From positions 1-21,192 of IMG/VR virus record IMGVR_UViG_3300032087_002128: a stretch of 21,192 nucleotides of DNA; one strand, written 5' to 3'. Source of the stretch: a virus. The notes under the pieces are model-generated. The model worked only from the letters and a program-made list of their open reading frames with translations. It was not told the DNA's origin and did not search any database. The first letter of the stretch is position 1. Each line of letters opens with the position of its first letter. A program made the translations under genes and the position numbers. Positions 2,663 to 17,628 of this stretch are shown piece by piece.

Positions 2663-4290
2663 TGGCAACTAGAGATGAAATTTTAGCAGAAATTGCAGAA
2701 ATAAAAAGTCAATATAAACTTAGCGATCAAGGTAATACCGAATCAAACAACGTAGGAGAATCATCTACAGCAGGTAATTTAACAAGAGCTGTTGCTCAAG
2801 GTTTGACTTTTGGTTTTGCTGATGAAATAGAAGCTGTTTTCAAATCTATAGGCAAAGACAAAACATACAAAGAAGCAGTAGATGAGGTCAGAGCAAAAGT
2901 AGATAAGTTTAGAAAAGATAATCCTGTATTAGCCTATGGTGCAGAAATAGCTGGATCAGTTCCAACTATGTTACTTGGTGGTGCAGGTGTTAGAGCAGTT
3001 CAAGGTGCTGGAAAATTAGCAAAAGGTGCAACTACTGGTAGTAAAGTTGGCAGTGCTATGAAAACTGGTGCTATTAGTGGTGGTATCTATGGTGCAGGAG
3101 CAGGTGAAGGTGCTGAAGGTAAAGCCATTGGTGCAGTTGCAGGTGGTGCTTTAGGTGGTGCTTTAGGTGGTTTAACTGCAAAAATTTTACCTAAAACTAC
3201 AGAACAAGCAAAAAAACTAATGAAAAAAGATATTAGACTAACACAAGGTCAAGCATTTGGTGGTGAAGGTAATGTTTTAGGTGGTGTTATTCAGAACCTA
3301 GAACAATCTACATCTTCTCTTGTTGGTGTTGGTAGTCCAATACAAATGGCAAAATTAAATAGTTTAGTTGATTTTAATAGAGCTGTAATAAAAGAAGCCT
3401 TAGAACCAGCATTGGGCAAAATGTCTAATAAACAGTTCAACTCTTTAATACCAAAAAATTTAAAAGGTAATGAGTTATTTCAACAAGCAGACGACATTAT
3501 GAAAAACGCTTACAATAAAGAATTAGCTAATGTGTCTTTAAATAGTAGTGCAGTCAATTCTTTAAAAAACACAATTACGCAATCTATTAGAACTTCAAAC
3601 ACAAGCACAGCAAATAAAAATAAAGTTTTAGCAGAAATTGGTAATCTTATAAAATCCAAAACTGAAAAGAGTGGAGGTATGAGTGGTATTGCTTTTAAAG
3701 AATTAGAAAGAGATTTGTCAGCATTATCTGCAAGTTACAAAAGATCACAAGGTGGAGATATTTTTCTAGCTAGATTAATTGACAACGCCAAAAAAGATGC
3801 AGGTAGTATTTTAAAAGCATTTAACCCTGAATCTAACCTTGCAAACATAAATAAATCACAAGTTGGTATGAGTGCCATACAAAAAGCAGTTAATAAAGCC
3901 AATACAACACAAGGGATTTTTTCTACAAAACAATTTTTAAACGCCCTTAAACAGAATGATATGAGTATTGGAAAAAAATCTACAGCTAGAGGTGATGGCT
4001 TTCTAAAAGAAACTGCACAATTAGCAGATGATGTTATGGGAGGTGCTATTCCAGATAGTGGCACAGCTAGTAGATTAATTACAGGTAACATTTCAGTTGA
4101 TCCTATAAAAGCGTTAGCATACGCACCTGCTACAATAGCATCAGAAATTGCTTATGGTATAGGCAGACCTGCTGTGAGAGGTTTACTACAAGTTCCAAGA
4201 GTAGGAATGAACACTATAACGCCAACAGCTTCAGGTTTACTAGGTGGAGCATCAGGTGATGCACTAAAGAATAGAGGAATATTAAGATGA
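2662..4290 (+). CDS. Internal virion / DNA-ejection-type protein
   Basis: A 542-residue protein. Residues ~35-105 contain the segment AQGLTFGFADEIEA followed by DNPVLAYGAEIAGS. This pairing is seen in many phage internal virion or ejection proteins. Residues ~107-175 are extremely rich in Gly, Ala, Val and Lys (for example GGALGGALGGLTAKI), an amphipathic or membrane-inserting type of composition. The C-terminal half is helical, with a final glycine-rich segment near SGLLGGASGDALKN. Such proteins are carried in the capsid or tail and help form the conduit for DNA across the envelope. No lytic transglycosylase motif is apparent. The stop overlaps the next start by 4 nt (ATGA). Confidence 0.65.
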   Translation: MATRDEILAEIAEIKSQYKLSDQGNTESNNVGESSTAGNLTRAVAQGLTFGFADEIEAVFKSIGKDKTYKEAVDEVRAKVDKFRKDNPVLAYGAEIAGSVPTMLLGGAGVRAVQGAGKLAKGATTGSKVGSAMKTGAISGGIYGAGAGEGAEGKAIGAVAGGALGGALGGLTAKILPKTTEQAKKLMKKDIRLTQGQAFGGEGNVLGGVIQNLEQSTSSLVGVGSPIQMAKLNSLVDFNRAVIKEALEPALGKMSNKQFNSLIPKNLKGNELFQQADDIMKNAYNKELANVSLNSSAVNSLKNTITQSIRTSNTSTANKNKVLAEIGNLIKSKTEKSGGMSGIAFKELERDLSALSASYKRSQGGDIFLARLIDNAKKDAGSILKAFNPESNLANINKSQVGMSAIQKAVNKANTTQGIFSTKQFLNALKQNDMSIGKKSTARGDGFLKETAQLADDVMGGAIPDSGTASRLITGNISVDPIKALAYAPATIASEIAYGIGRPAVRGLLQVPRVGMNTITPTASGLLGGASGDALKNRGILR

Positions 4291-6317
4291 CAGTATCAAG
4301 TTACAGCACAACAGCTAGTAGTAATACAGCTATTAATGGAGTTAATATATCTGAGGGTATGTCTCCCTCTGACGTAAATAACGCTATTAGAGAACAATTA
4401 AAAGATGTCCGATCAGTATGGAACGACAAAGAATGGTTTTTATTAGGCGATGGCGATGGTACAACTACATTTACTAGGGCCTCTGCATCATCAGTTACAG
4501 TCGCATCAGATATCACATCAACACATCATGTAGGTCGTAGAGTTAAGATAATTGGTAGTGCTACAGGTACAATTTTTGGTAAGATCGCAACAAGTTCTTT
4601 TTCTTCACCGAACACAACTTTAACCTTTACTTTTGATAGTGGTTCTCTTAACTCAGGTGATACCACAGTTGCAGTTTATGTCGGTTCGGTTTTTACAAAT
4701 CCAGCTAATCCTGTTGTCGATGAAGATAACATGGCGAGTGATAGTGCTATACTTCCTCCTTCACAACAATCCACAAAAGCATTTGTCACTTCAGGCACAG
4801 TCACCTTATCGAATAAATCAATCAATCTAGGTAGTAACACCCTAACAGGAACAACTGCCCAATTTAATACAGCATTATCTGATAATGACTTTGCTACATT
4901 AGCTGGATCTGAAAATCTTACAAATAAGACACTGACAAGTCCTATTCTTAATACAGCAATCTCAGGTACTGCATTTAAAGATGAAGATGATATGGCATCT
5001 AACAGTGCAACTGCTGTGGCCTCTCAACAATCTATTAAGGCTTATGTAGATCAACAAGTAGGATTATCTGACTTAGATATTAGTGATGGTTCTTCTACGA
5101 TAGCTATAGACCTAGACTCTGAAACTTTAGGATTACTAGGTGGTACAGGTATCGACAGCACAGCGTCAGGCAATAATGTAACTTTTGCTATAGACTCCAC
5201 TGTAGCGACAAAGACTGGAACAGAAACACTTACTAATAAAACTATTAGCGGTTCATCTAACACTTTATCAAACATAGCAAACTCTAGCCTCACTAACTCT
5301 ACTGTGAGTTATGGTGGGGTATCTCTAGCTCTTGGTGGTACTGACGCAACTCCAGCTTTTGACTTACAAGACGCAACCAGTTATCCAGCTAGTGCTTTAA
5401 CAGGAACTGTCTCTAACTCACAACTAGGTACAGGAATTGATGCTACAAAGATTGCTGATGGATCTGTCACTAACGCAGAGTTTCAATATATCAATACTCT
5501 ATCTTCTAATGCTCAAACTCAATTAGATGCTAAAGTAGCAAAGGCTTCAAACTTATCTGACTTAGCTTCAGCTTCTACTGCTAGAACTAATCTTGGTCTT
5601 GGAACAATGGCAGTTCAAAACTCTGCTACTGTAAGTATTAGTGGTGGTAGTATTACAGGATTATCGACACCTTCTAATAATTCAGATGTAGCGATTAAGT
5701 CTTATGTTGATGATGCAGTTGCTGGTTTAAGAACAAGAACGATAGCTGAGTGTGCAACAACAGCGAATGTCAATCTATCTAATGGATTAGAAGCTGGTGA
5801 TACTATTGATGGTGTTACATTAGTTGCTGGTGATAGAGTCTTAGTTAAAGATCAATCTACAGCTACAGAAAATGGTTTATATATTGCAGTCTCAAGTGGT
5901 TCTGCTTCAAGAGATCCTGAACACGATACAATCGCAGAGTTAAGTGGTGGTATGGTGGTCGTCAATCAAGGATCAACAAACGATAATAAAATATTTTTAT
6001 GTACGACAGATAATGATGGCTCACTAGGTTCTACAAACATTACCTATACTCAAGTTACCCCATCTAATACAGGTACAGTTACAAGCATTGGCCTAACACA
6101 GTCAGGCTCAGAATTTTCTATATCAGGATCACCAGTGACATCTGCTGGTAATATCACACTAGATGTAAACAGAATTAGTGCTACGAAGATTGGTGGCAAC
6201 TCAAATGTTTCTGATACAGAATATGGTTATCTCGATGGAGTAACCTCATCAATACAAACACAAATTAACAACAAAGCTGGTGCTGGTTTCGCAGTAGCGA
6301 TGGCAATAGCTTTATAA
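4287..6317 (+). CDS. Large tail fibre protein
   Basis: A 676-residue fibre-like protein. Residues 1-135 look like the tail-attachment domain of marine-phage fibres, with ISEGMSPSDVNNAIREQLKD near residue 21 and a beta-rich stretch ending TTVAVYVGSV. A repeated element of the form DEDxMASxSAxxxxSQQSxKAxV occurs at ~145-167 and ~232-254. LTNKTL/LTNKTI repeats occur near 211 and 307. A beta-structured module near 480-592 contains IDGVTLVAGDRVLVKDQ and ENGLYIAV, common in phage fibres. The end contains EYGYLDGVTSSIQTQINNK, also a typical fibre segment. Composition is rich in Thr, Ser, Asn and Gly. It probably forms the trimeric shaft that carries or precedes the smaller receptor-binding proteins downstream. 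Confidence 0.85.
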   Translation: MTVSSYSTTASSNTAINGVNISEGMSPSDVNNAIREQLKDVRSVWNDKEWFLLGDGDGTTTFTRASASSVTVASDITSTHHVGRRVKIIGSATGTIFGKIATSSFSSPNTTLTFTFDSGSLNSGDTTVAVYVGSVFTNPANPVVDEDNMASDSAILPPSQQSTKAFVTSGTVTLSNKSINLGSNTLTGTTAQFNTALSDNDFATLAGSENLTNKTLTSPILNTAISGTAFKDEDDMASNSATAVASQQSIKAYVDQQVGLSDLDISDGSSTIAIDLDSETLGLLGGTGIDSTASGNNVTFAIDSTVATKTGTETLTNKTISGSSNTLSNIANSSLTNSTVSYGGVSLALGGTDATPAFDLQDATSYPASALTGTVSNSQLGTGIDATKIADGSVTNAEFQYINTLSSNAQTQLDAKVAKASNLSDLASASTARTNLGLGTMAVQNSATVSISGGSITGLSTPSNNSDVAIKSYVDDAVAGLRTRTIAECATTANVNLSNGLEAGDTIDGVTLVAGDRVLVKDQSTATENGLYIAVSSGSASRDPEHDTIAELSGGMVVVNQGSTNDNKIFLCTTDNDGSLGSTNITYTQVTPSNTGTVTSIGLTQSGSEFSISGSPVTSAGNITLDVNRISATKIGGNSNVSDTEYGYLDGVTSSIQTQINNKAGAGFAVAMAIAL

Positions 6318-11867: not shown

Positions 11868-12005
11868 ATGGAAAAATATGCGTACAAAGCTATTGAGAAA
11901 ATGGATGAATGGATTGCCTGGTTCAGAGATGCTAGTCCATTAAAGAAATTTATTTTCTTTGCAGCTGTCATTATTGTTATAAGTATTCTATCTAAGATCT
12001 TTTAA
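11868..12005 (+). CDS. Small C-terminal-anchored membrane protein, 45 residues
   Basis: Begins nine bases after the holin-like stop with a good ribosome site (AGGAG). The N-terminal half is amphipathic and charged (KAIEKMDEWIAWFRDASP) and residues 28-44 form a membrane helix (FIFFAAVIIVISILSKI). Its TAA overlaps the next ATG (TAATG). The location next to the holin suggests an accessory lysis role such as an antiholin or second holin, but this is inference. Confidence 0.6.
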   Translation: MEKYAYKAIEKMDEWIAWFRDASPLKKFIFFAAVIIVISILSKIF

Positions 12006-12202
12006 TGCACTGGTACGACTGGTCTAAAAAGAATATTTACGAGCAAGAAGAATATAAAAAAAAATCTCAATTAAAAATCTGTCCAGAGTGTAAGAACTAT
12101 CCTTGCATTGGTGATAAATACCTGGATGTCTGGTGTTGTATTGACTGTGGTGCGATCCGTAAAAAAGAAAAAGAAGAAAGTAAAGAAGCGACCAGTCTAT
12201 AA
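12005..12202 (+). CDS. Zinc-ribbon protein
   Basis: A 65-residue protein with a clear metal-binding pattern: CPEC (x2 spacing) near residue 26 and CCIDCG near residue 46, flanked by lysine-rich segments. The two knuckles are about 20 residues apart as in small zinc ribbons. The C-terminus runs through a poly-Lys/Glu stretch coded by a long A-rich tract. The start overlaps the upstream stop. It overlaps the GIY-YIG-like frame that follows, so the two may be functionally linked. Confidence 0.6.
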   Translation: MHWYDWSKKNIYEQEEYKKKSQLKICPECKNYPCIGDKYLDVWCCIDCGAIRKKEKEESKEATSL

Positions 12203-12488
12203 AGTCTATAAGACTTTCTATAAGACGGGGGAATATTACATTGGTGTCACCAGTAAGACAGGAGCTGCGTTTGATAATTACTGGGGATCAAATACCACCG
12301 ATAGAGTTCCGAGCCATAAAGATATAATTTATATCACTCATAACAAAGCAGACGCTAAATTGGTAGAGCTAATCTATCAGCTCCAAAACTTTTACCAGGC
12401 TGATTGTTTAAATAAAATGTTAAACATTCGACTCCGCAGAGATCATATTAAAAAGATACCGAGATTTAGTATTAAAATAACCGAATAA
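12126..12488 (+). CDS. GIY-YIG-nuclease-like protein, start uncertain
   Basis: The recognisable part begins around 12190: VYKVYKTFYKTGEYYIGVTS, then FDNYWGSN and a helix-rich C-terminus with basic residues. YYIG followed by YxGS is the pattern of GIY-YIG-type phage proteins, though the first GIY element is modified (KVYKTFY). The frame is open from ~12108 and overlaps the zinc-ribbon gene. Possible starts are TTG 12108, ATG 12126 and GTG 12150, and none has a good ribosome site. Alternatively the two frames form one protein by +1 shift or by an indel in the A-rich run near 12161-12184. Confidence 0.45.
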   Translation: MSGVVLTVVRSVKKKKKKVKKRPVYKVYKTFYKTGEYYIGVTSKTGAAFDNYWGSNTTDRVPSHKDIIYITHNKADAKLVELIYQLQNFYQADCLNKMLNIRLRRDHIKKIPRFSIKITE

Positions 12489-12505: not shown

Positions 12506-12532
12506 TTTAAAACGCTCTGAGAACGTCTTAAA
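12506..12532. terminator. Hairpin between convergent operons (probable terminator)
   Basis: TTTAAAACG (506-514 of this kb) pairs with CGTCTTAAA (524-532) with one mismatch around a 9-nt loop CTCTGAGAA. It is followed on the plus strand by T6 at 12538-12543 after a 5-nt gap. It sits exactly where the plus-strand late block (last stop 12488) meets the minus-strand operon (last stop 12528) and overlaps that stop. A modest stem, so confidence is moderate. Confidence 0.5.
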
Positions 12533-13094
12533 ATGGATTTTTTAGGGGGTATTCCCATCTATTTTTGATAGAACTGCTCTGAACTTTTTTTCTTGATCTG
12601 GATGGTTTTGTCCATTCCCCACCTGGACTAACACAGGAATTATTCCAGTTTGCAGCTTTGTAAATAGTTCCTAAATGGACATCTGTATCTTGATATGAAA
12701 TTAACTTATTTAATTCTGGAAATTTTATTTTTATTTTTTTTACCATTTTGGATAATGTGTATGTTGCTGTATTCTTTGGACAAAAATCAGATAAAGCCAT
12801 TCTTCTTAATTCTAAAAATGTGTTAGGATCTAATCTTCTAGCTACAGGAGATGACCAAATAGCAGTTCCTATAATAGCTTGTTTATATTTAAAAATATAA
12901 CAAACATATTTTTTGTTCCTAACAACATTAGACCAATGAATATTTGGTAATCTTGAATGCCACATTTCATTAAGCAGACAAGCTAATTGAGCTTTAGTTT
13001 CTTCAATCTCTATATGTTTAACAGACTCTATCAATTTTATTATTTTTTTTATTAAAACAGGCAAAACACTCATATCTAGGATTGCTCTCACCAT
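12528..13094 (-). CDS. Mom-like (GNAT-fold) DNA-modification protein
   Basis: A 188-residue frame. The core at ~60-165 contains CYIFKYKQAIIGTAIWSSPV, then TFLELRRMALSD with CPKNTATYTLSKM, then LISYQDTDVHLGTIYKAANW. E-x-x-RxAxxD, KNTxSxxLxxM and ISYxDxxxHxGTIYxAxNW are the pattern of phage proteins related to Mu Mom, which modify adenine by methylcarbamoylation and block restriction. The GNAT fold is also used by other acyltransferases, so the exact chemistry is not fixed. The tail is basic. The ATG at 13094 overlaps the upstream zinc-finger frame by 77 nt. TTG 13034 or ATG 12965 are alternative starts. It is the last gene of the leftward operon. Confidence 0.6.
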   Translation of the reverse strand: MVRAILDMSVLPVLIKKIIKLIESVKHIEIEETKAQLACLLNEMWHSRLPNIHWSNVVRNKKYVCYIFKYKQAIIGTAIWSSPVARRLDPNTFLELRRMALSDFCPKNTATYTLSKMVKKIKIKFPELNKLISYQDTDVHLGTIYKAANWNNSCVSPGGEWTKPSRSRKKVQSSSIKNRWEYPLKNPF

Positions 13095-13227
13095 AATGAT
13101 TAACTCTAATTAAATTAACCTCCAACCAATCCCTGGTACAGACATCACAAGGATATAACTCCAGGCTGTGCTGAAATTTTTTACCCCTAACTTGGAATTG
13201 ATTTTTTCTTTTCACAATAGATAACAA
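13018..13227 (-). CDS. Zinc-finger protein, unknown function
   Basis: A 69-residue frame containing YPCDVC (CxxC) and, about 28 residues later, YECFACF (CxxC), separated by a strand WLEVNLIRVNHYGES. The four cysteines make a credible zinc-binding site, similar to HNH-like or treble-clef pieces in small phage proteins, but no His-Asn-His triad is present. There is no internal ATG. Starts are TTG 13227 or GTG 13215, without a good ribosome site. It overlaps both neighbours, which is unusual even for this compact operon. Confidence 0.45.
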   Translation of the reverse strand: MLSIVKRKNQFQVRGKKFQHSLELYPCDVCTRDWLEVNLIRVNHYGESNPRYECFACFNKKNNKIDRVC

Positions 13228-13369
13228 AATCTTCTATATTATTCTGTTGCATAATTGTAATAACATCTTTGGATGCTTCCTGGCATTCATGAGCTGTTTT
13301 AAAATTAGCATTGAGGTGAGAACAAGTTCCATTCGCACACATTGTTATCCATAAAATAAATTTTACCAT
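13187..13369 (-). CDS. Small cysteine-containing protein, possible secretion signal
   Basis: A 60-residue protein. The start MVKFILWITMCANGTCSH is hydrophobic and could be a short signal or membrane segment. Cysteines at ~11, 16, 29 and 52 could form disulphides outside the cytoplasm. The ATG overlaps the previous stop (ATGGTAA). Unrecognised. Confidence 0.45.
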   Translation of the reverse strand: MVKFILWITMCANGTCSHLNANFKTAHECQEASKDVITIMQQNNIEDFVIYCEKKKSIPS

Positions 13370-13743
13370 TCTACATCTAGACTACAGCTTTTACATTGAC
13401 CTTGCAAACTTCTTAACCAGGCTAACCATAGCTTTGGATCTGCTGTTCTGTATGTCTTTGAAACTTGTGGACTGACTCGTCTAATTCTAAACTGGGTAAT
13501 TTTATTTTCCTGGACTGTATACAATACAACAAAACCTGGAAGCTGCATCTTATCAGCAATCTTTTTTACCAAGGTAAACGCCTTGTCTTGACCTTTGTCC
13601 ATCGCTACCTCAATGATAGCCAAGGGTTCATAACAAACTTTGCAACACTCTACTGAGTCTACATCAATCATGGCAATCCCCTCATATTGACGATGCCATT
13701 CGGAGTAATGATCCCCCTGGTTAAAGTAATTCCATCTAGCCAT
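13363..13743 (-). CDS. Conserved-looking phage protein with cysteine pair, function unknown
   Basis: A 126-residue protein. Residues ~25-45 contain MIDVDSVECCKVCYEPLAII followed by EVAMDKG; the spacing of Asp residues and of EVA resembles a small nuclease-like or metal-binding core, but this is speculative. Residues ~68-92 form strands (GFVVLYTVQENKITQFRIRR), and a CKSC pair sits near the C-terminus. With CCKVC it could bind zinc. The start lies within the end of the DUF3310 gene (8-base overlap). Confidence 0.5.
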   Translation of the reverse strand: MARWNYFNQGDHYSEWHRQYEGIAMIDVDSVECCKVCYEPLAIIEVAMDKGQDKAFTLVKKIADKMQLPGFVVLYTVQENKITQFRIRRVSPQVSKTYRTADPKLWLAWLRSLQGQCKSCSLDVEW

Positions 13744-13969
13744 TATCGTTTAAGTATTGTAGCAGCTTGTTGGTGTACCATTCTGCCTTACCGATATCCA
13801 TCAGCTTAGCTTCCTGGGTGTCGTTATGTTTTGCACCAAAACGACAAACATATTTCATAATAGAAAATCTAAGATATCCGATCACTTGTTCTTTGGTTAA
13901 TTGACTAGAGATAGCATCAAAAGTTTCTATTTCTTTTTTATAATGATCGGGATTTATTTGTTCTGGCAT
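13736..13969 (-). CDS. DUF3310 protein (T7 gp1.7-like small family)
   Basis: A 77-residue protein. The start INPDHYKK and the later segment GYLRFSIMKYVCRFGAKH, then DIGKAEWYTNKLLQYL, match the DUF3310 family: PxHY at the front, a KYxxRxxxK core and a KAxWYxxxL helix. T7 gp1.7, a member of the same broad family, is a nucleotide kinase that affects dideoxynucleotide sensitivity; whether this protein has that activity is unknown. Ribosome site GGAGGAAGA precedes ATG, inside the end of the upstream gene. Confidence 0.8.
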   Translation of the reverse strand: MPEQINPDHYKKEIETFDAISSQLTKEQVIGYLRFSIMKYVCRFGAKHNDTQEAKLMDIGKAEWYTNKLLQYLNDNG

Positions 13970-14115
13970 TCTTCCTCCATTGAATTTTTATTAGCAAAGT
14001 AACCAGGGTGAAGAACATATCGCTCTAAATAACGTCTGTTCTTCTTCCTGGCTCTTTCTTCTTTGTTTAAGATCTCACCTCTGGTGTATTGTCTTAGAGT
14101 CTTTTGATCTTTCAT
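13954..14115 (-). CDS. Small basic protein, 53 residues, unknown function
   Basis: Translates to a lysine/arginine/glutamate-rich protein with YTRGEILNKEERARKKNRRY and an end SMEEECQNK. It fills the gap between the DUF3310 gene, which it overlaps by 16 nt, and the SSB-like gene two bases upstream. Its last codons contain the ribosome site of DUF3310. No recognisable family. The strong basic helix could bind nucleic acid. Confidence 0.5.
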   Translation of the reverse strand: MKDQKTLRQYTRGEILNKEERARKKNRRYLERYVLHPGYFANKNSMEEECQNK

Positions 14116-14117
14116 GG

Positions 14118-14402
14118 TTAAAACGGAGCGTCATCTGAGGATACATTACCCTCTGCATTGTTAGAGCTGCCGCCTGTAAATGGCTGCCATTCTTCCACCG
14201 CTAAAGACACTGTTGGATATCCAGTATTCTTTGTTGTGCCTTGCCATAAGGTTAGTTTATATGGCTGACCAGCTTTTAAAACAATATCCTCTTGTGGTGT
14301 AAAGCCTTCCTTGTGAGAAGATGCCAGGGGTTTCTTTCCCCATGATGTCATTGATGATTTTAAATCATCCCCGGGGAACATATTTAAATATTTTTTACTC
14401 AT
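14118..14402 (-). CDS. Small single-stranded-DNA-binding-like protein with DDAPF tip
   Basis: A 94-residue protein from ATG 14402; a longer frame from 14429 is unlikely. Residues ~15-80 include GKKPLASSHKEGFTPQ, VLKAGQPYKLTLWQG and TKNTGYPTVSLAVEEWQP, strands compatible with an OB-fold. The C-terminus is the acidic SSDDAPF, the type of tip by which bacterial SSB recruits partner proteins. Adjacent to the annealing protein (8-nt overlap) and the exonuclease, so a role in recombination or replication is expected. Much shorter than cellular SSB. Confidence 0.55.
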   Translation of the reverse strand: MSKKYLNMFPGDDLKSSMTSWGKKPLASSHKEGFTPQEDIVLKAGQPYKLTLWQGTTKNTGYPTVSLAVEEWQPFTGGSSNNAEGNVSSDDAPF

Positions 14403-15033
14403 GTAGATGTTTTCCTTTCTTGAGTTCATTTAGTTCTGTTTTTTTATTTGACCAAATTAATCTTGCTTTGTTTTTGTCTGCATCATTTAGAGAATTAATC
14501 CAGTCTTTAAATCTTGTTGCTGTTTCTGCTAAATGACCTTCTTGTTTTGCTTGATTAATTGCAGCAGTAAATTCTTCAAACTTATCCGCTGTTGTGCCAG
14601 AGCTACTGATAGTCTGGCTTTTAGCTTCCGCTATTTGTATCTCATCATAAGATGCAAACTCCTGTCCGCTAAAACCTAAATTGGCAAGACTACGACCAAT
14701 AGCACTGGTTTCGCAGACCTCCCAAAAACTTGTTAAATTTACAGGAGCAGATCCTTCTCTAAATTCTTCTGCAATTCCTGTTGATACAACTTTTCCATCA
14801 ATACTGATAGAGCATTTCATTACAACTACTTCTGTTTCTAAATTTTTTACTTTTACTTTGTCATTCTTAACGACATCAACAGTAATAGAAGCGTCTGGAA
14901 AATACATTCTAAATGCTTTCAGTCTTTGATTAACTGTGCCATATTTTTTTCCACCTCTTACTGTCATCGCATTCTTTTGAAAATCTTTTTCGTAAACAGC
15001 AATAGCAGCTTTTAATTTATCTTGATTGTTCAT
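14395..15033 (-). CDS. Rad52/Erf-like single-strand annealing protein (putative recombinase)
   Basis: A 212-residue protein starting at ATG 15033 behind GGAGAAAAA. Residues ~35-125 have the sequence NQRLKAFRMYFPDASITVDV, a strand-rich middle with KCSISIDGKVVSTGIAEEF, then APVNLTSFWEVCETSAIGRS followed by LANLGFSG. This matches the Rad52/Erf-like family of phage annealing proteins that carry the VN-xTS-xxE-CETSAIGRALA signature. The C-terminal part is charged helix. With the exonuclease encoded three genes upstream it would form a two-component recombination system. The fold call is inferred from motifs. Confidence 0.6.
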   Translation of the reverse strand: MNNQDKLKAAIAVYEKDFQKNAMTVRGGKKYGTVNQRLKAFRMYFPDASITVDVVKNDKVKVKNLETEVVVMKCSISIDGKVVSTGIAEEFREGSAPVNLTSFWEVCETSAIGRSLANLGFSGQEFASYDEIQIAEAKSQTISSSGTTADKFEEFTAAINQAKQEGHLAETATRFKDWINSLNDADKNKARLIWSNKKTELNELKKGKHLHE

Positions 15034-15559
15034 TAATATTTTTTCTCCTATTAATTTCTTTTTGTGCAACAATAATTAAATCGTATGGATCACGATCTTG
15101 TTTAATGTCATTTGCTTTCCAACTAATACATTGGATATTGTCTATGGTATGAGGTTTAGAATTATCTAAACGATCAAAAGATATAACCATTTTATCATTT
15201 GGAATAAATGTCATTGGCTGATTGAAATAAGAACAAATAAATTGACCAGTTCTTACATCTAAAGTTTTATAAAGTTTTTCTCTTAATTGAGGAACTCCAG
15301 GTATATATTTTGCAGACTCCTCACCAAAAGTTTTTATATCAAACTTTTTCATATCTCTTTTTCTTTGACGTAAAATATTTTTTTCATTCATTTTATATTT
15401 TAATGATGATTTTTTCTTTCTATCGTCAATCCTAGTGCATTCTAAACAGCGTCTGTTTCTCGTAACTCTTTCTGTTAAATGACCATGAACACAAGGAACA
15501 CCAGTATAATACCTAGATAATTTCCTTCTTTTAGCTTCTACTGCACTAATAATTTTCAT
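15017..15559 (-). CDS. HNH endonuclease-like protein with N-terminal zinc finger
   Basis: A 180-residue protein whose ATG overlaps the previous TGA (TATGA), fixing the start at 15559. Residues ~15-45 carry VPCVHGHLTERVTRNRRCLECT, a C-x2-GH...C-x2-C zinc finger. The C-terminal half contains ISFDRLDNSKPHTIDNIQ followed by CISWKANDIKQD. The SFDRxD...N...C...N..K pattern is a variant HNH motif in which the first His is replaced by Ser/Phe-Asp. It could be a genome-processing or homing-type endonuclease. The stop overlaps the annealing protein start by 17 nt. Confidence 0.65.
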   Translation of the reverse strand: MKIISAVEAKRRKLSRYYTGVPCVHGHLTERVTRNRRCLECTRIDDRKKKSSLKYKMNEKNILRQRKRDMKKFDIKTFGEESAKYIPGVPQLREKLYKTLDVRTGQFICSYFNQPMTFIPNDKMVISFDRLDNSKPHTIDNIQCISWKANDIKQDRDPYDLIIVAQKEINRRKNINEQSR

Positions 15560-15765
15560 ACTAGATCTGTTCCTATTTTGATATGAAACCAAATCCATTT
15601 CATATTTTGTTTTTCTTTGAGTCTGTTTCTGCATCTACATTGATGCGATAACTCTCTTTCTTTTTGTTTTCTTCTATCCATCTTTACTAACGGATAGATT
15701 TTATATTCATCCTGTAACTCAAGTGAGTTTATGAATGGTTCTAGTGGGATAATATTAGCGACCAT
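15556..15765 (-). CDS. Small basic protein, unknown function
   Basis: A 69-residue protein with a strong ribosome site (GGAGGT, 11 nt upstream). A hydrophobic start (MVANIIPLEPFINSLEL) is followed by a very basic, Cys-containing middle (MDRRKQKERELSHQCRCRNR) and an aromatic end. It links the exonuclease (11-nt overlap) to the HNH gene (4-nt overlap). No family recognised. The basic region suggests nucleic-acid binding. Confidence 0.45.
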   Translation of the reverse strand: MVANIIPLEPFINSLELQDEYKIYPLVKMDRRKQKERELSHQCRCRNRLKEKQNMKWIWFHIKIGTDLV

Positions 15766-16633
15766 AAAATTGTTTTACCTCCTGTAATTCTTCTGGTGTA
15801 TATCCATAATAGTTAATATTAGAAAAGTCTGGCTGAATAAAATTCTTTGCGATGTACTCAGCATCATCCGATAGCTTCACTAAATTCTGTCTGGTAAGAG
15901 CTGTACGATAGAAATCATTCATACAGCTTTCACCAGTTTCAGCACTTAATGCGGAGGAATTGACTGTGCTGAAAACTTTGTATTCATAGGGTGTTGCATA
16001 AATTAAATAGCCTTGTTTCTTTGTAGCTGCTCGGTAAAAAGATACTTGATCCACATGAGCCTTTTCTGGTTCTTCTGGTATGGCAACTTTTCCATAATTG
16101 TAAGTACCATCTTTTCTAGGTTTACCAGATCTCTTTTGCCATTTAGTTTTTGCTTCTATAAAAAATTCTTCTGTTTCCATATCGGTACGACCAGTCCAAG
16201 GAATATCAATTCCATCCATCCATAAATTAACGTACCGCTCACTGTTTATTGTCTTGTGAGTTTTTATTTCTAAATCTTTTAATGCTTGGATATAATTTTT
16301 AACTACTAATGGGATAGCTTCCATGTTCACTTCAAACTGTTTCATTTCTTTTTCATCATCTAAAAAATTTCCTTTTCTTTTTAGATAATCTTTGACTGCT
16401 AGATCTACAGACTCATCCTCGGACTTATCAAAAAGAGCGTAGTTATCCCAACCAATTTGTGCTGATACTCCCGCTAACATTTTAGCATTTGGTTTTTTCT
16501 TCCTCCTCCATTCCTGGTCTTTGTAAACGTATTCATACCACCATCCGCACAGCGGTTTATTTTTCTGTGTTGGTGATAAATGATTGAGTCCATGCTTCAA
16601 CCAATGTTCCCCAACAAATTTAAAATCATCCAT
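15755..16633 (-). CDS. PD-(D/E)XK exonuclease (lambda-exo/RecB/Cas4-like)
   Basis: A 292-residue protein, start behind AAGGAAG. The catalytic core is visible at ~140-200: DGIDIPWTGRTDM supplies the Asp, EFFIEAKTKWQK supplies the E-x-K strand, and HVDQVSFYRAAT carries the Gln of the following helix typical of RecB-type nucleases. N-terminal residues include helices (HWLKHGLNHLSPTQ) and CGWWYEYV. This type degrades one strand of duplex DNA ends to give single strands for an annealing protein; the Rad52-like protein, HNH and SSB-like genes follow in the operon. Whether it is an exonuclease or an endonuclease cannot be told from sequence alone. Confidence 0.8.
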   Translation of the reverse strand: MDDFKFVGEHWLKHGLNHLSPTQKNKPLCGWWYEYVYKDQEWRRKKKPNAKMLAGVSAQIGWDNYALFDKSEDESVDLAVKDYLKRKGNFLDDEKEMKQFEVNMEAIPLVVKNYIQALKDLEIKTHKTINSERYVNLWMDGIDIPWTGRTDMETEEFFIEAKTKWQKRSGKPRKDGTYNYGKVAIPEEPEKAHVDQVSFYRAATKKQGYLIYATPYEYKVFSTVNSSALSAETGESCMNDFYRTALTRQNLVKLSDDAEYIAKNFIQPDFSNINYYGYTPEELQEVKQFYGR

Positions 16634-16656
16634 TTAATTGCTTCCTTTTCTTGATC

Positions 16657-17628
16657 TTAGCTATTGTTGCTATCATGTAAAGACATATTTTGAAAAATAT
16701 GAGTGATGACATCGACAGTCCAACCATTACCAAGCATCTTATATCTTTGGGTTTTTGATACCCCATCTGTGTAATTATCAGGAACAGTCTGTAATCTTTC
16801 ACATTCTATTGGTGTTAGCTTTCTATATCTATTTTCAGTAATATTTATTTTAGGTTCTCTATTCCCACCGGTACAAGCGTTTAAAGTAGGTGATTTTCCC
16901 TCTGTTGAATAAACTCTTTTTAAGATATCATGTCCGTTTATGTCTGTTGCTACACCTATTTGAATAGGTTTTTTTATATATGTTGCAATCTGACCTTTCC
17001 ACATTGATGCAGTTAAACATCTTGCTTTTTCATCATTAATGGATTTGACCATTTCACCTCTTGTTTTTTTTCCAAAATGATTTTTTAAATAATTTGGATT
17101 TTCATCAAAAGGTAAATCTTCAAGAATATTTTTAATAACTATATTTTTTTCTTTTGGCTGTTCAATATTAGGGATATTAGTCCAATAATATCTAACTCTG
17201 TTTTGTGCAGATACCAAAGAAGAATTTATTTTAATGGGTTCGACTCCTAAATATTCAGAAATAATATCTAAATATTCTTTTTTCATTTTGACATTTTCTA
17301 ATAAAAAATATTTTGGTTTTAGTTCTTTTAACAATCGAACAAACTCAAAAAATAATTTACTTCTGGGATCATCAAAAGCTAATCTTTTCCCCGCTAGGCT
17401 AAAGCCTTGGCATGGTGAACCACCAATTAATAAATCTATCTTTGGCAGATCTTTGGCTGAAACCTGGGTAACGTCACCAATATGTTTTGTATTTGGATAA
17501 TTCTTTTTTGCTATTTGAATTGCATATTTATCAATCTCTGATGCGAAGTAATTATCATATTTAATATTTAATTTGTTTAATGCTATCTGTCCGCAAGACA
17601 TTCCGTCAAACAAAGATAAAACATTCAT
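16657..17628 (-). CDS. C5 cytosine DNA methyltransferase
   Basis: A 323-residue enzyme using S-adenosylmethionine to methylate cytosine at C5. Motif I LFDGMSCGQ near residue 5, motif IV GGSPCQGFS with the catalytic Cys, motif VI ENV, motif VIII QNRVRYYW, motif IX-like RKLTPIECERLQTVP and motif X MLGNGWTVDVI are all present and in order. The target-recognition region between VIII and IX is ~80 residues and cannot be read for specificity. The ATG at 17628 has a ribosome site (AAAGGAA) and overlaps the previous TGA; the longer frame to 17733 is out-of-frame coding for the small upstream gene. No partner restriction endonuclease is seen, so it is a solitary phage methyltransferase. Confidence 0.92.
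   Translation of the reverse strand: MNVLSLFDGMSCGQIALNKLNIKYDNYFASEIDKYAIQIAKKNYPNTKHIGDVTQVSAKDLPKIDLLIGGSPCQGFSLAGKRLAFDDPRSKLFFEFVRLLKELKPKYFLLENVKMKKEYLDIISEYLGVEPIKINSSLVSAQNRVRYYWTNIPNIEQPKEKNIVIKNILEDLPFDENPNYLKNHFGKKTRGEMVKSINDEKARCLTASMWKGQIATYIKKPIQIGVATDINGHDILKRVYSTEGKSPTLNACTGGNREPKINITENRYRKLTPIECERLQTVPDNYTDGVSKTQRYKMLGNGWTVDVITHIFQNMSLHDSNNS

Follow-up and report, generated by a model that had tools for sequence, protein, structure and literature searches.

Two predicted DNA-modification genes in a leftward phage operon

The stretch of DNA analyzed here, the window, is the virus record IMGVR_UViG_3300032087_002128 (21,192 bases), whose leftward operon codes for two predicted DNA-modification enzymes, namely a C5-cytosine methyltransferase and a GNAT-fold protein of the Mom family. 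The tail and fibre protein genes of the window run rightward; the minus strand then holds every gene from 18957 to 12528, mostly overlapping or nearly abutting, with genes for a nuclease, an endonuclease VII-like protein and a probable annealing protein alongside both modification genes, and this operon is followed by rightward replication-initiation and small-terminase genes. Viral contigs with a syntenic operon, the relatives of the window, reach lengths of 35-37 kb, and we accordingly take the 21 kb record to be part of a genome measuring ~35-37 kb. The phage is probably pelagiphage-like, with a SAR11 host, since Pelagibacter phages account for nine of the ten phage records matched by its nuclease gene (15755-16633). 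The features that matter most are the following:

12528..13034, minus strand: mom-like gene, 168 amino acids, predicted GNAT-fold Mom-family DNA-modification enzyme and last gene of the operon (PF25680, AlphaFold model, dN/dS)
12554..13051, no strand: inserted segment of ~498 bp carrying mom (synteny and alignment with L085, L086, L089-L092, L103 and L106)
12528..12553, minus strand: final mom codons (YPLKNPF and stop), contributed by the resident phage DNA where the insert joins it (same sequence in mom-less relatives such as L091)
13018..13227, minus strand: gene for a small CxxC...CxxC protein that overlaps the mom start from the upstream side and is kept in mom-less relatives
16657..17628, minus strand: orphan C5-cytosine DNA methyltransferase, 323 amino acids (PF00145, M.HhaI match, motifs, dN/dS)

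An earlier note, made from the DNA letters, had placed both enzymes in one leftward operon devoid of a restriction enzyme. Both genes do lie there, and no restriction enzyme family was matched among the operon genes and methyltransferase neighbors in Pfam and PHROG searches, a result that holds for the part of the genome present, as the window is a fragment. The methyltransferase has pelagiphage recombination genes as its neighbors, and the nuclease genes in the operon are of the recombination type (endonuclease VII-like and remote nuclease-like).

A Mom-family protein at the operon end

The frame at 12528-13094 (minus strand) had been called Mom-like from a short motif, which does exist there and reads LISYQDTDVHLGTIYKAANW. 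Pfam recognizes this frame as Mom (PF25680, E=4.7e-16, 59.5 bits vs. a cut-off of 27.1), as it does the shortened version at 12528-13034 (59.9 bits, cut-off 27.1), and the longer frame further matches phrog_1384, "Mom-like DNA modification protein" (E=7e-24). As the earlier call presupposed, the AlphaFold (AF2) model adopts the GNAT fold (predicted local distance difference test score 87.9, predicted template-modelling score 0.83), and its best PDB match in Foldseek is Mom of phage Mu (8bv8, E=3.9e-10, template-modelling score 0.74); the title of that entry, "inactive mutant S124A", is our source for S124 as a key Mu residue. A family profile run against PDB sequences likewise returned 8bv8 as the sole match (up to E=10). 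When a single Mom protein was used as the query against viral contigs, no match was obtained, and it was the family alignment that recovered homologs, among them a close clade (L118-L134) with 43-77% identity. Window T91 aligns with Mu S124, in a column that is Ser or Thr in 36/36 aligned proteins, and H26, R78, S113, H120, G122, Y125, N129 and K157 are invariant among the aligned Mom proteins. By profile and modelled fold, then, the product of 12528-13094 is a true Mom-family protein.

Its resemblance to Mu extends from the family profile, the GNAT fold, the conserved core and the Ser/Thr at the S124 position to the gene order: mom is the last operon gene in both, and a CxxC...CxxC gene overlaps its start, like com in Mu. 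The two differ in that a WHSRLP motif replaces HYS in the window protein. The CxxC...CxxC gene (13018..13227) is also present in mom-less relatives and is probably no Com; we hence rejected it as a dedicated regulator of mom. In Mu, Mom places a carbamoylmethyl group on N6 of adenine (PMC7824862).

A protein of this fold could alternatively modify a non-DNA substrate (protein, small molecule or RNA), like the majority of GNATs. Many GNAT N-acetyltransferases fit the model nearly as well as Mu Mom, and acceptor specificity is unreadable from sequence; however, Mu Mom ranks first by both sequence profile and fold, and Pfam names Mom alone for all 36 aligned family members, bar one weak additional "phage GNAT-like" match, and we consider a non-DNA substrate quite improbable.

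Insertion of mom

The start of mom is probably the TTG at 13034, giving 168 amino acids, instead of the ATG at 13094, as the closest relative starts there and the DNA upstream of ~13052 is older phage sequence: the L118 Mom reads MIESVKDIKIEETRAQ and the window protein LIESVKHIEIEETKAQ, with the Leu coming from the TTG at 13034. Outside ~12554 to ~13052 the flanks match mom-less relatives, which places mom within an insert of ~498 bp, and related Mom proteins end in RWEYNL or RWEYSI, whereas the window protein ends in YPLKNPF, as in the resident sequence of mom-less relatives such as L091. Scanning for terminators downstream of mom gave no site. In most relatives the genes flanking the insert are directly adjacent, i.e., the site is empty, and in L085 (13622-13978) the exact slot is occupied by a different gene of 118 amino acids with a weak, sub-cut-off match to PD-(D/E)XK endonucleases. 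The operon end thus appears to be a site of exchangeable genes in this phage group. None of the 14 records of the window's phage group that were searched (0/14) has a Mom, and a tblastn search with Mom against one collection of named phages matched no Pelagibacter phage, so that mom may be new to pelagiphages. Listeria, Vibrio, Enterococcus and Klebsiella phages, among others, also have Mom-like genes. Among 297 SAR11-family genomes, a single one (G098, locus L297) carries a Mom-family gene (E=3.5e-37).

This history raises the alternative that only the methyltransferase works against restriction, with mom a recent passenger expressed weakly if at all, leaving the phage with one modification. 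Consistent with a passenger, no relative checked has mom, which comes last in the operon, begins with TTG, has no clear Shine-Dalgarno sequence and draws its C-terminal codons from the insertion junction. Yet its frame is intact and its core conserved, the ratio of non-synonymous to synonymous substitution rates (dN/dS) is ~0.16 against L118, a value that reflects mostly its history before insertion, and the overlap with the upstream gene would permit translational coupling. On balance we regard a silent mom as unlikely.

An orphan C5-cytosine methyltransferase

That the gene at 16657-17628 (minus strand) codes for a complete C5 methyltransferase was borne out by the intact frame, which starts with the ATG at 17628, and by PF00145 (E=7e-56), with motifs I, IV (PCQ, whose Cys is residue 73), VI (ENV), VIII, IX and X in order. 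Its closest solved homolog is M.HhaI (E ~4e-31), and it resembles the orphan phage C5 methyltransferases with the M.HhaI-type fold in possessing all catalytic motifs and no cognate restriction enzyme. It is found at the same place in 5/14 relatives (L086, L087, L092, L099 and L104) and is missing from the other nine; identity is 81-85% within the group and 69% to the L118 enzyme, which has a different target-recognition region. The closest named homologs, ~66-67% identical, come from the Pelagibacter phages HTVC134P and HTVC309P, which have SAR11 hosts but are Autographiviridae with T7-like genomes, with Mom annotated in neither record. The dN/dS is 0.11-0.22 against genus relatives, and 0.08-0.22 over the mom and methyltransferase comparisons together; both genes have been under purifying selection across their history.

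No target sequence could be fixed from site counts. With near-duplicates dropped by eye, 8 CCGG sites fall within the 74.5 kb of methyltransferase carriers vs. 1 within the ~136 kb of non-carriers (the ~136 kb summed by hand), a post hoc contrast drawn from a scan of many sites and phylogenetically confounded by the shared ancestry of the carriers. Such a bias would fit a CCGG-type target, which we treat as a lead only.

Orphan phage methyltransferases can play regulatory roles, and this one, an orphan carried by some relatives only, might serve regulation, packaging or timing instead of protection from restriction. Against this, the site avoidance and the SAR11 Type II genes described below make protection plausible, and the presence of CCGG mainly in carriers is a weak post hoc sign of it; a purely regulatory enzyme therefore seems rather improbable to us.

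Pairing of the two enzymes

The earlier note had described the combination as an uncommon double shield. The enzyme assignments stand, and the uncommonness is weaker than supposed: a C5 methyltransferase is found above cut-off in 10/64 Mom-positive viral contigs searched (several of the 10 being short fragments), including the Halogranum tailed virus HGTV-1, and Paenibacillus phage Vegas has Mom together with a partial-length C5 methyltransferase match. HGTV-1 resembles the window phage in its Mom-like protein and full-length C5 methyltransferase but is an archaeal virus of 144 kb with the two genes ~9 kb apart. The pairing already has precedent and is of a known kind. The counts, 10/64 vs. 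5/14 in the window's own group, lend no support to the idea that Mom carriers are enriched in C5 methyltransferases.

The two genes can lie close together, with gaps of 389 bp in L118 and ~240 bp in L164. L118 (IMGVR 3300025815_000632), an uncultured phage contig with a different backbone, has the closest mom (77% identical) and its C5 methyltransferase 389 bp downstream. We nevertheless rejected a co-transferred cassette: the window methyltransferase is nearest to those of mom-less genus relatives and its mom to that of L118, and these separate closest relatives point to two genes that reached the phage separately. By their distribution, both are accessory. As a separate observation, Polaribacter phage P12002L (L115:2104-3615) has an annotated DNA methyltransferase ~100 bp before a Mom-like gene; its genome has no PF00145 match, placing that methyltransferase in another class.

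Restriction-site avoidance

Site counts were made over 159 kb of phage sequence (11 loci of the genus, some of them nearly identical and hence not independent) and 856 kb of SAR11 sequence, with expectations from a maximal-order Markov model. Several short palindromes are nearly or wholly missing from the phage group and not from SAR11: observed/expected counts in the phages are 0/100 for GGCC, 0/109 for GCGC, 5/65 for GGNCC, 9/83 for CCGG and 0/29 for GGATCC, as against 458/527, 345/323, 585/607 and 256/252 for the first four in SAR11, where GGATCC is exceptional (49/90). Palindromes of 6 bp show observed/expected ratios of 0.65-0.77 in the phage group vs. 1.01 in SAR11, and random non-palindromes, used as a control, 0.98-1.03 in all sets. 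CCWGG is over-represented in the phage group (window 738-21192, L085-L104). HTVC134P and HTVC309P differ in that they lack GATC and do not avoid GGCC; a published marine-methylome study found about half of pelagiphages depleted in GANTC (PMC9516812). The avoidance is seen with and without both enzymes, and it thus supports restriction pressure rather than a function of mom specifically.

The phage part of the window itself contains only three GGCC sites (4478, 5018 and 6090), all in the tail-fibre gene 4287-6317, which suggests an origin of the gene in a phage with another restriction history.

Restriction genes in SAR11 genomes

We searched 297 SAR11 genomes, the family of G079 (Pelagibacteraceae by the title of its locus L254). 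PF00145 is found above cut-off in 54/297, some of these being merely short, weak matches, and the Type I domain HsdR_N in 11/297. Among 20 neighbors of the 15 best PF00145 matches, an Eco47II-family enzyme (L290) and two Bsp6I-family enzymes (L285 and L291) lie directly beside C5 methyltransferases, and an HNH protein lies beside another (L283). The G+C of these loci is 0.285-0.304 vs. a SAR11 average of 0.291, which argues against contamination. Some SAR11 genomes hence seem to carry Type II restriction-modification genes, contradicting their published absence. Eco47II cuts GGNCC and Bsp6I cuts GCNGC; the phage group avoids the Eco47II-type site but not the Bsp6I-type site. Together with the avoidance in the phages, these genes give a DNA-modification shield a plausible target.

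A possible double shield against Type II restriction

Directly supported by these results are the identity of the genes, the GNAT fold, the conserved residues, purifying selection, accessory status, the site avoidance by phage and not host, and the SAR11 restriction genes; from them we infer the expression, chemistry, targets, protective effect and host of a mechanism that we consider plausible. A pelagiphage-like phage would have gained two DNA-modification enzymes independently, each at its own place in the leftward recombination operon. One of them, the C5 methyltransferase (16657-17628), would place 5-methylcytosine at one short target, and the Mom-family GNAT (12528-13034) would probably attach an acyl-type group to adenine N6 in a loose sequence context. 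Both marks would turn replicating phage DNA into a poor substrate for the Type II enzymes that some SAR11 hosts appear to carry, supplementing the genome-wide loss of restriction sites. To the proposal as a whole, i.e., two independently acquired accessory enzymes that jointly shield phage DNA from Type II restriction, we give a probability of about two in three.

Several points weigh against it. The marine-methylome study reported SAR11 genomes to be without restriction-modification systems (PMC9516812), and in our searches restriction genes occur in only a minority of them. Site avoidance is equal in mom-less relatives and so predates mom, giving no sign that mom is needed. The window protein has Thr in place of Mu S124 and is shorter (168 vs. 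241 amino acids), and its TTG start comes with no clear Shine-Dalgarno sequence.

More tentatively, we entertain a broader scenario that we hold to be possible but somewhat doubtful: a minority of SAR11 strains may subject their phages to real Type II restriction, which the window phage would counter in three layers, namely site removal, 5-methylcytosine and a Mom-type hypermodified adenine, with mom added recently at the operon-end exchange slot. SAR11 are the commonest ocean bacteria, and with phages shedding Type II sites and some hosts carrying Type II genes, restriction in SAR11 becomes directly testable. Mom chemistry has been worked out chiefly in phage Mu, and this Mom, short and divergent and from what is probably a SAR11 phage, would test how broadly it applies. 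The restriction context of SAR11 phages matters more than the gene pairing itself.

Other genes and observations

The remaining annotated genes of the leftward operon are as follows:

13187..13369, minus strand: small conserved gene, 60 amino acids, no assigned function
13363..13743, minus strand: conserved gene, 126 amino acids, no family match
13736..13969, minus strand: DUF3310/nucleotide-kinase-associated protein (PF11753, E=1.2e-13)
14118..14429, minus strand: possible small protein like the single-stranded DNA-binding protein SSB, judged from its acidic DDAPF tail; no family match
14395..15072, minus strand: phrog_11717 protein of unknown function (E=2.7e-24), probable single-strand annealing protein from its position beside the nuclease
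15017..15634, minus strand: endonuclease VII-like gene (phrog_1035, E=2e-14)
15755..16633, minus strand: putative pelagiphage nuclease/exonuclease (tblastn; the ten phage records are nine Pelagibacter phages and "Phage C72C1")

The reading of 14395..15072 as an annealing protein follows from pelagiphages in which an annotated nuclease adjoins an annealing protein.

At the left end, positions 1-700 have a G+C of 0.5-0.6 vs. 0.34 for the remainder, and their minus strand appears to code for the C-terminal part of a bacterial aldehyde dehydrogenase. GCGC (five sites) and CGCG (three) occur here and nowhere else in the window; this is probably a chimeric contig end. Next to mom on the opposite strand, a conserved gene at 12108-12488 (plus strand), which had no family match, contains KVYKTFYKTGEYYIG, reminiscent of GIY-YIG nucleases. 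A small cysteine-rich protein is encoded at 12005-12202 (plus strand), with a weak, sub-cut-off match to the Lar restriction alleviation family (PF14354, E=0.013).

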